Shown in pieces: positions 19,646 through 21,801 of a DNA stretch of 55,617 bases. The notes under the pieces were generated by a model, which was given only the letters and a program-made list of their open reading frames with translations, was not told the DNA's origin and made no database searches. The stretch comes from Prochlorococcus sp. AG-418-G23 (lineage in GTDB: Bacteria > Cyanobacteriota > Cyanobacteriia > PCC-6307 > Cyanobiaceae): positions 1-55,617 of the forward strand of contig QCLY01000004.1 in NCBI GenBank assembly GCA_003214195.1. The letters run 5' to 3'. Each line of letters begins with the position of its first letter. Position 1 is the stretch's first letter. The translations under genes and the position numbers were made by a program.

Positions 19646-20317
19646 ATGCAGGCTGTAATTTTAACAGGTATAGTCGCAGGATTTGTGCATGTAGTAAGTG
19701 GCGCTGATCATCTAATTGCAATGGCACCAGCAGCGATTAATAATCCCCAAAAAGCTCTTAAAAATAGTTTCTCATGGGGCTTGGGACACTCTTCAGGAGT
19801 CCTCTTGTTAGCTTTTCTAGCGATTTTTATTAAGGATATTACGCCATTAAACAAATTTTCTAGTATTGCAGAATTCCTAGTTGGAATTTCACTTCTAATT
19901 GTCGGAGTATTTGCTATAAAAAATTCTTTTCAATTAAGTTTGCACTCTCACTCTCACAAACATGAGAATGGTATTGCACATCGTCACCTTCATTTTCATG
20001 TAAAGGAACAAAAAAATAATAATAAGCACTCCCATGCCTTGACAGGTTTAGGTTTACTTCATGGTATAGCTGGAGGTTCACATTTTCTTGCAGTTATTCC
20101 TGCTTTAGCACTACCTTTAACAAGCGCTTGCTTATATTTGATTTCATATTTGATTGGTTCACTAATAAGTATGAATCTTTTTACTTGTTTAATATCTTTT
20201 ACTACCTTTAAAGCAAGTCAAAAATTTATTAAAAGATTAATAGCTTTAGCAGGAGGGCTTTCCTTTTCTTTGGGATTATTTTGGATTCAAAGAAGTGCTT
20301 CTGTTTTTTTGAATTAA
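19646..20317 (+). CDS. SodT/UreH-like nickel transporter
   Basis: 223 residues with about six hydrophobic segments. Near the N-terminus is HVVSGADHL (His15, Asp21, His22), reminiscent of the His...Asp-His metal motif of NiCoT and UreH-type transporters, and WGLGHSSG follows in the next helix. Residues 100-130 form a loop with about ten His (HSHSHKH, HRHLHFH, HSH), a likely metal-binding loop. The neighbours sodX and sodN make a role in feeding nickel to Ni-SOD likely; SodT-type carriers are known next to sodN in cyanobacteria. Substrate and direction are inference. Its 3' end overlaps the converging sodX by 42 bp. Confidence 0.8.
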   Translation: MQAVILTGIVAGFVHVVSGADHLIAMAPAAINNPQKALKNSFSWGLGHSSGVLLLAFLAIFIKDITPLNKFSSIAEFLVGISLLIVGVFAIKNSFQLSLHSHSHKHENGIAHRHLHFHVKEQKNNNKHSHALTGLGLLHGIAGGSHFLAVIPALALPLTSACLYLISYLIGSLISMNLFTCLISFTTFKASQKFIKRLIALAGGLSFSLGLFWIQRSASVFLN

Positions 20318-20668
20318 AAAATTTTTTAATTTAGGAATTATTAATTTAGAGGTGACAATCCCAATTATTTTTTCGTTGTTGATTAATCCAAATTTATTAC
20401 TATCTTCGCTAAATTCAATATTATCGCCAATTACCTCAACGTTATTTTGATTTACTGAATTTATCCTTTTTATGAGGTTTTTATTTTTAATTGGATGATT
20501 AAAAATAACTATTTGTCGATTTTTAAGTATTGATTTATTCTTTTTATATTTTTTAAAAAATACAATATCACCATCTTTTAGGTAAGGAAACATCGATTCA
20601 CCACTAACAATCGCGGTTTTTCTTAAACCTAAAAAAAATAAAATAAAATCAAAAAAACTTTTGAAAAT
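20276..20668 (-). CDS. sodX: Ni-SOD maturation protease SodX (S26 signal-peptidase-like), non-canonical start
   Basis: Cleaves the propeptide of SodN. The first ATG is at 20593 (MFPYLKDGD), but the serine nucleophile of S26 peptidases is the residue before that Met (GESMFP), encoded at 20594-20596. The true start is therefore upstream. The frame is open to 20680 and encodes a hydrophobic anchor (FFDFILFFLGL) followed by RKTAIVSGESM, as expected. No ATG, GTG or TTG occurs there. Candidates are ATT 20666-20668 (used here, giving 130 residues), GTT 20669-20671 and ATC 20675-20677, which overlaps the sodN stop. The catalytic Lys is probably in the NRQIVIFNH or KNLIKRI stretch. It lies directly downstream of sodN. 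Confidence 0.75.
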   Translation of the reverse strand: MFKSFFDFILFFLGLRKTAIVSGESMFPYLKDGDIVFFKKYKKNKSILKNRQIVIFNHPIKNKNLIKRINSVNQNNVEVIGDNIEFSEDSNKFGLINNEKIIGIVTSKLIIPKLKNFLIQKNRSTSLNPK

Positions 20669-20676
20669 AACTCTGA

Positions 20677-21150
20677 TTAACTAGCTTTTACAAAAGCGTC
20701 TGATCTTCCTTTTGAGGCCCAGAAAATATTATGAATTTTTTCTACATAACTCATGAGTTCTTCAGCTTGGGCTAAGTCAATATTAACTTTGCATGCACTG
20801 CATAATTTGGCCGCCTTCCAAATGGTTTCATGTAAGTCTGGATAAGTTTCTAGGTGAACTGGTTTGAAGTAATCTGTCCACAAAATTAGAATCTCTTTCT
20901 TTGTTTCTTTTGCTTGCTCTTCTTTAACTGCAACATATCTAGAAAATGTATTACTGTAAGTAGCCCACTCTTCTGAATCAGTGCTAGAAGGAGCTTCTAA
21001 TGCAATAAGTTTTTTTGTCATTGATAAAACTGCTTCAGCTGCAACTCTCGTAGATGCTGGGTCGTAAACACCACAAGGACCATCGCAGTGAGCATGGACT
21101 GTCATTGGGGATTTTTTATCTAGAAAAGAATTGATGAATTTACTTAACAT
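20677..21150 (-). CDS. sodN: Nickel-dependent superoxide dismutase
   Basis: 157 residues. The nickel hook HCDGPCGVY begins at His21, so a 20-residue propeptide ending VHA must be removed to free the N-terminal His that ligates Ni together with Cys22 and Cys26. The rest is the four-helix bundle of the family. It removes superoxide without iron, which suits iron-poor oceans. sodX follows with its possible start overlapping or within about 10 nt of the sodN stop, and a nickel-transporter-like gene lies beyond in the opposite orientation. The start at 21150 fits the propeptide length. Confidence 0.98.
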   Translation of the reverse strand: MLSKFINSFLDKKSPMTVHAHCDGPCGVYDPASTRVAAEAVLSMTKKLIALEAPSSTDSEEWATYSNTFSRYVAVKEEQAKETKKEILILWTDYFKPVHLETYPDLHETIWKAAKLCSACKVNIDLAQAEELMSYVEKIHNIFWASKGRSDAFVKAS

Positions 21151-21228: not shown

Positions 21229-21801
21229 TTAATTGACTTTTAATAATTCAACTTCAAATATTAAAGTCGCATTAGCAGGTATTACATTTCCAGCTCCTCT
21301 TGATCCGTATCCAAGTTCAGGAGGTATTGTTAATTTTCTTTTGCCTCCAACTTTCATGCCTGCTACACCTTCGTCCCAACCTTTTATTACACGTCCAGCA
21401 CCCAAGGGAAAGCTGAATGGAGCTCTGCCGATACTGGTATCAAATTGTGTCCCGTCTTCTAGAGTTCCTGTGTAATTTACAGTAACTGTTTGCCCAGCAT
21501 TAGCCTCATCTCCTTCCCCGTTTACAATATCTGCAATAATTAGACCACTTTCTGTAGTCCTTGAATTGTTGTCTGATGGTGTTTCTTCTGCCATAGCGAA
21601 AAGTATAGGATTTGGATCGGATGGGTCTAGTTCAAATAAATTATTATTTGAGACATTTGATGGTTTTGCAACAGGTGTTCTTTGTACTGACTGAGTTTCT
21701 GATTCGGCAGCATTAACAACTTGTGGTGAATTAAATTGACTGAAAAGAGTTAATGAAACACAAAAAACAAAAACTGCAAAACTAATAAAGACTTCTTTCA
21801 C
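21229..21801 (-). CDS. Exported FKBP-type peptidyl-prolyl isomerase
   Basis: 190 residues. An N-terminal hydrophobic segment ([20 protein letters not shown], 4-23) is a signal peptide or anchor, followed by a ~60-residue Ser/Asn/Pro-rich linker. The FKBP domain occupies about 85-190: [53 protein letters not shown] and [11 protein letters not shown] are the family core. It probably assists folding in the periplasm or thylakoid lumen. It lies 78 bp upstream of sodN on the same strand. Confidence 0.92.

Follow-up and report, generated by a model that had tools for sequence, protein, structure and literature searches.

Prochlorococcus sodX lacks an ordinary start codon and probably begins at an AUU just behind sodN

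The Escherichia coli chromosomal genes pcnB and infC are begun at an inefficient AUU codon, for pcnB reportedly on experimental evidence. Here, a similar weak start is proposed for sodX, the gene of the maturation protease of nickel superoxide dismutase (Ni-SOD), in Prochlorococcus sp. AG-418-G23 (GCA_003214195.1, contig QCLY01000004.1, positions 1 to 55,617 of the forward strand; this whole stretch of 55,617 nt is referred to as the window). The gene lacks an ordinary start, and probably opens with an AUU just behind sodN, the gene of the dismutase itself. Unlike pcnB and infC, sodX is without a Shine-Dalgarno site and has an upstream stop codon 8 nt away, whereas coupling to an upstream gene forms no part of the description of the E. 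coli genes used for comparison. Non-canonical starts have also been found by re-annotation in Staphylococcus aureus, at cvfC1 (AUU, established by experiment and conserved among staphylococci) and ccpN (AUA) (PMC13009471). In contrast to both, sodX sits behind sodN and has no Shine-Dalgarno site. The locus also resembles the M13 pair geneV-geneVII, where the downstream gene follows closely behind the upstream stop, and reinitiation in E. coli is helped by a Shine-Dalgarno site without requiring one (PMC2268962). Compared with that pair, the AUU is an unusual addition at sodX. To our knowledge, natural termination-reinitiation pairs use standard start codons. In Streptomyces, as at this locus, the RNA that lies between sodN and sodX is conserved (PMC3919588); there, a small RNA from the 3' end of sodF regulates sodN through a 19-nt antisense match, and no sodF small RNA was sought in this work. 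Searches of the PMC literature yielded no study of the Prochlorococcus sodX start codon. A 2004 paper by Eitinger (J. Bacteriol. 186:7821), whose title describes expression of sodN from strain MIT9313 together with its peptidase, could bear on novelty.

Ni-SOD has been described as essential in these organisms (PMC4284471), and sodN, sodX and sodT have been called core in Prochlorococcus (PMC10119275). In one survey, 10 of 55 cyanobacterial strains with sodN were reported to be without sodX (four of them picocyanobacteria with no other SOD), and missing sequence was suggested (PMC8346466); a missed sodX start is a testable alternative for those ten strains. Tools that accept only ATG, GTG and TTG could cut the gene short or mislabel it. 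If the start proposed here is true, a conserved AUU without a Shine-Dalgarno site behind an upstream stop would be a natural case of start strength setting the ratio of protease to substrate, and the weak start may keep the SodX protease scarce.

The sodX frame and its missing canonical start

Read on the minus strand, the sodX frame stays open between a TAG at 20683-20681 and a stop at 20278-20276, and the first ATG, GTG or TTG in it is the ATG at 20593-20591. Upstream of that ATG it reads TTA ATC AGA GTT ATT TTC AAA AGT TTT TTT GAT TTT ATT TTA TTT TTT TTA GGT TTA AGA AAA ACC GCG ATT GTT AGT GGT GAA TCG. A previous note on this DNA, made without database searches (the sequence-only reading), had claimed that no canonical start lies between the upstream stop at 20681-20683 and the Ser codon, which is confirmed, and the span it gave (20594-20680) is right. 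It had also held that a start at ATG 20593 would drop the Ser; indeed, this ATG lies directly behind the Ser codon 20596-20594 and would yield a product of 105 aa. Codons are numbered relative to this Ser, negative numbers lying upstream, and pN/pS denotes the ratio of non-synonymous to synonymous differences. The locus comprises, all on the minus strand:

20677..21150, minus strand: sodN, nickel superoxide dismutase, 157 aa; open reading frame (ORF) matching TIGR02753 (243.8 bits, cut-off 90) and PF09055 (167.1 bits)
20679-20677, minus strand: TAA, stop codon of sodN
20276..20668, minus strand: sodX as proposed, from ATT to stop, 130 aa, Ni-SOD maturation protease; the extended frame matches TIGR02754 (72.1 bits) and PF10502 (51.3 bits)
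20666..20668, minus strand: ATT, proposed start at codon -24, with the sodN stop 8 nt ahead of it, from codon counts and the change in pN/pS
20597..20668, minus strand: leader carrying a hydrophobic anchor, which seems to be translated with no canonical start, from pN/pS
20594..20596, minus strand: TCG, codon of the catalytic Ser in the S26 fold, its role assigned from the family motif
20591..20593, minus strand: first in-frame ATG, behind the Ser; a start here would give 105 aa without it
20468..20470, minus strand: AAA, likely catalytic Lys of LIKRI, read from the frame with the Ser/Lys motif
20681..20683, minus strand: TAG, first in-frame stop upstream of sodX
20669..20671, minus strand: GTT (-25), alternative start, less likely
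20675..20677, minus strand: ATC (-27), alternative start, unlikely, sharing one base with the sodN stop
20631..20638, minus strand: run of eight T within the leader, examined and discarded as a possible slippage site

We take TCG 20596-20594 to encode the S26 nucleophile Ser and AAA 20470-20468 the likely catalytic Lys, from the Ser/Lys motif. Several features place the gene in TIGR02754: the extended frame exceeds the curated cut-off (63.25 bits), sodX adjoins sodN on the same strand with sodN upstream, and the Ser nucleophile is encoded and invariant, and would be part of the protein provided that the start lies upstream. Apart from its non-canonical start, sodX looks like an ordinary Ni-SOD maturation protease gene, cleavage of the SodN leader being the expected role. 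With the leader the TIGR02754 score is 72.1 bits, compared with 62.8 bits from the ATG. As the ATG-started ORF falls just below the cut-off, it is plausible that automatic annotation truncates or loses sodX, as had been predicted from the sequence.

The protein was found in 161 of the 200 genus genomes searched and in 63 of 66 of high quality, and both sodN and sodX were placed in 209 of the 216 loci taken up (numbered with the prefix L; the HLII, HL and LL groups below are our own, drawn by locus number, similarity and general knowledge, with L052 in the HLII-like set). Among 131 distinct genus haplotypes, none has an ATG, GTG or TTG at least 18 codons before the Ser anywhere in the open frame; a canonical codon before the Ser is absent altogether in 121, confined to the anchor in 9 and within 8 codons of the Ser in 1. 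The alignment of relatives proposed with the sequence-only reading therefore came out in its favor, and what that reading had named as contrary evidence (a true canonical start or frameshift, or homologues beginning at the FPYL position without the Ser) did not appear among the genus haplotypes, L114 carrying a 5-nt deletion that puts a TTG in frame. The same pattern occurs in the isolates MIT 9302 (L055, from the best 80 of 257 relatives, as is the identity of L052) and MIT 9201 (L107), and in the single-contig genomes G015 (L142) and G022 (L145). Sequencing error is an unlikely cause of the missing start because the genus relatives also have no canonical start. In one T/A-rich stretch, such as the approximately 28 codons of the window's frame upstream of the Ser, the absence of ATG, GTG and TTG could be chance; their absence at 18 or more codons before the Ser in 131 of 131 haplotypes is not. 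Outside the taxonomic family, loci of other cyanobacterial TIGR02754 proteases, members of the same protein family, have a canonical codon at least 18 codons before the Ser in 33 of 33 cases (ATG in 29, by hand count), although these frames are long and richer in G+C, so that some matches arise by chance. In 29 of the 33, sodN lies on the same fetched stretch as the protease; 4 are without sodN there.

The Ser itself was kept in 97 of 97 HLII-like haplotypes, as well as throughout two additional sets of loci (13 of 13 and 17 of 17). The cell might nevertheless start at ATG 20593, the only canonical start nearby, and make a product without the Ser. This is scarcely credible, as the Ser is invariant in the haplotypes examined and the leader is under protein-level constraint, and loss of the nucleophile would, from knowledge of the S26 family, inactivate the protease.

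Coding constraint and the choice of start codon

Comparison of 11 genus representatives gave pN/pS values of 0.21 for codons -24 to -16 and 0.262 for codons -24 to -9, similar to 0.343 and 0.23 in the body of sodX, and 1.167 for codons -29 to -26, a stretch that partly overlaps the end of sodN and provides no neutral yardstick. The sodX leader therefore looks translated. Because pN/pS is low downstream and 1.167 upstream, coding constraint appears to start at about -25/-24, with a resolution of about two codons. Synonymous change was also assessed for an additional, nucleotide-level constraint. In HLII-like haplotypes it was 0.167 in the leader against a simulated mean of 0.497 from matched downstream codons, with about 1% of draws as low (13 of 17 codons testable, pools of 1-14 sites, 5 of 97 haplotypes dropped). 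Within HLII (every third of 110 loci), pS was 0.12-0.14 in the leader and 0.209 in the body, in agreement with this test, whereas among clades it was hardly lower in the leader (0.47-0.535) than in the body (0.532-0.579); such a constraint is possible.

At codon -24, the 131 genus haplotypes carry ATT (118), ATC (7) or ATA (1), and 130 have one of these triplets at -24 or -25. Five lack them at -24: two with AAC and two with ACC, all four with ATT at -25, and L114 (genome G112), whose 5-nt anchor deletion shifts the ATT out of the sodX frame and a TTG into it at -17, making it a natural test of the sodX start. We consider it probable, from this comparison of sequences, that sodX starts at ATT 20668-20666, by AUU initiation behind the sodN stop on the part of ribosomes that have just finished sodN: an ATG, GTG or TTG early enough to give the functional protein (18 or more codons before the Ser) was found in 0 of 131 haplotypes, and constraint begins at about the proposed codon. 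The sequence-only reading had offered ATT, GTT and ATC as candidates, giving the low ends of their coordinates (in full, ATT 20668-20666, GTT 20671-20669 and ATC 20677-20675). A non-canonical start is indeed required if the Ser and leader are translated, but GTT and ATC are less likely, as the comparison favors ATT 20668.

Initiation instead at the neighboring codon -25, which is GTT in the window and often ATT in relatives, or at the ATC of codon -27 is unlikely, GTT 20671-20669 being the main alternative. In favor of these sites, codon -25 is ATT in four of the five haplotypes without ATT, ATC or ATA at -24, and codon -27 is ATC, ATT or ATA in 77 of 97 HLII-like haplotypes, the rest having CTC, ACC, ACT, AAA, TAA or other codons. 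Overall, codon -25 is GTT in 68 of the 131 genus haplotypes, ATT in 53 and another codon in 10, including TCT, AAG or TAT in 5. GUU, the codon at -25 in the window, generally initiates less well than AUU. Going upstream, the first stop is met at -26 in 6 haplotypes, -27 in 8, -28 in 11, -29 in 86, -30 in 4, -31 in 12, -35 in 2 and beyond -44 in 2. Codon -27 is consequently closed off in 14 of 131 and is kept less well, which makes ATC 20677 unlikely, and where codon -26 is itself a stop, any start farther upstream is precluded, as in L121 and L122, whose junction reads TAA ATT ATT TTC.

Also considered was a start at an out-of-frame TTG (20652-20650) that transcriptional slippage at the T-run, or a ribosomal frameshift there, would join to sodX. 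One extra T in this run of eight would join the TTG to the sodX frame, and L114 has the same TTG in frame through its deletion. However, TTTTTTTTA occupies codons -14 to -12 in 82 of 98 HLII-like haplotypes, and the other 16 differ, most of them interrupting the T-run. Some relatives, L079 and L137 among them, have lost the TTG, and the part of the leader that precedes it evolves as coding sequence in the sodX frame. Slippage was rejected on the interruption of the run and is very improbable.

Coupling to sodN

Following the proposal of a start at ATT 20668-20666, the initiator fMet-tRNA would begin at the AUU, and ribosomes ending on sodN would supply most sodX initiation by reinitiation, which we infer because no Shine-Dalgarno site lies in a usable position (GGAG, GAGG, AGGA and AAGG were absent 4-14 nt before codon -24 in 131 of 131 haplotypes). 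In 130 of 131 haplotypes the sodN stop precedes codon -24 by 6-11 nt, and in the window by 8 nt, within the limit of about 20 nt that the E. coli measurements cited below suggest for reinitiation, and the coupling to sodN raised as possible in the sequence-only reading is consistent with this distance. With a weak AUU, each sodN message would give abundant SodN substrate and little protease, and a low output of SodX would be the selected effect.

Fusion of SodN and SodX through frameshifting, stop readthrough or bypassing at the end of sodN would likewise account for two adjacent genes of the same direction with codon -24 at so short a distance. Conversely, the two genes take all three relative frames over 209 loci (133, 52 and 24), the gap from sodN to the Ser in L001-L110 being 80 nt in 96 loci, 81 nt in 13 and 78 nt in one (L052, with a divergent sodX). 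The window also carries a TAG ahead of sodX in the same frame, and a pN/pS of 1.17 just upstream argues against a translated sodX frame there. Since the frame relation varies, a fixed frameshift or readthrough fusion was rejected; neither a conserved slippery site nor a fixed frame, as expected of programmed frameshifting or slippage, was found. Bypassing is independent of relative frame, so the frame data speak less against it, but fusion as a whole is highly improbable. L052, which shares its junction haplotype with L154, has a SodN 98% identical to that of the window and a sodX of the divergent type (55% identical to the window's in L154), as if the two genes had recombined apart.

Besides the want of a neutral yardstick upstream of the leader, several observations weigh against AUU initiation coupled to sodN. 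The window has no Shine-Dalgarno site, only an AGAG 2 nt before its ATT. In L114, a start at -17 may suffice. In E. coli, a distance of 2 nt cost reinitiation 5-70% and about 20 nt almost abolished it (PMC10666635). As a local precedent for an AUU start infC failed, since a canonical ATG stands directly behind TGA in 9 of 10 genus loci, the tenth (L231) showing none in view. Sister genera show no one codon or position in place of the AUU, and L173 lacks a canonical codon throughout its open frame (about 52 codons ahead of the Ser) as well as any AUN before -13; because of these, AUU alone would not explain the whole family.

Sister genera, RNA folding and neighboring genes

In 48 loci from other genera of the family, a canonical codon lies in the leader in 11, only within sodN in 17, only in the anchor in 8 and only within 8 codons of the Ser in 3, and is lacking in 9. 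L170, for instance, reads CCC ATT CCA where L167 and L169 read ATG ATG CCA, and has a further ATG inside sodN.

These loci (L167-L214) share a probable RNA hairpin within the sodX coding sequence, at codons -11 to 0 before the Ser. Standard pairs occupied 69.4% of cells, compared with 35.6-48.5% when the stem was slid, and the covariation score was 0.329 against 0.109-0.169. None of 500 shuffles reached the stem's pairing, its covariation score or its 79 cells changed on both sides. Against the hairpin, the two measures that relatedness inflates least gave no excess over the shuffles: pairs changed on both sides (9, shuffled mean 9.4) and further pair types (37, mean 34.8). Pairing also exceeded synonymous resampling (0.68 vs 0.551, sd 0.012), with a z of 10.4 that is inflated by related loci. 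The stem is well formed (at least 11 of 14 pairs) in 23 of 48 loci and weaker outside the family (0.471 in 25 loci; 29 of 40 extra control loci were located, including 25 of 33 from outside the family). Rfam gave no match for the hairpin in the 8 loci tested, and a 60-base plasmid search with the L167 flank, an ill-chosen query, found nothing.

A second strong hairpin stands between the sodN stop and the anchor in L188, L182, L205, L214, L167-L170 and L179. Folding was compared with synonymous versions in the first 40 of 68 HLII-like loci, the first 40 of 48 from other genera and all loci of the other groups; over codons -26 to -12, the other genera had a mean z of -1.62, with 16 of 40 under -2. 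Before the Ser, where the sister genera have the first hairpin, the window's clade carries another and shorter stem, with a mean z against synonymous codons of -1.62 (40 HLII-like), -2.0 (24 other HL) and -0.45 (15 LL-like). Four divergent genus members (L158-L161) form a stem of at least 12 pairs (longer by eye) at about codons -15 to -5, with compensatory changes and in another register than the sister hairpin. In the window itself, junction folding is not notable (z -1.07), no terminator was found behind sodN, and Rfam gave no match for the stretch or 8 relatives.

The sister hairpin may hold ribosomes at a weak start or hide a dead-end ATG. More speculatively, the marine picocyanobacterial junction could be a reinitiation device lax in its start codon, with a weak codon at the right distance (AUU, AUC or AUA in Prochlorococcus and different non-AUG codons in its sister genera) and, in the sister genera, perhaps helped by the hairpin before the Ser; we consider this unlikely, reflecting the two of five hairpin measures that did not exceed the shuffles.

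Among the neighboring genes, sodX overlaps a plus-strand ORF (19646-20317) tail to tail by 42 bases (20276-20317). This ORF is probably sodT, a UreH-like nickel transporter; it had no Pfam or NCBIfam match, and sodT has been placed beside sodN and sodX (PMC4284471). On the minus strand, sodN is preceded at 21229-21801 by an FKBP-type peptidyl-prolyl isomerase (PF00254), whose listed ORF starts with GTG.
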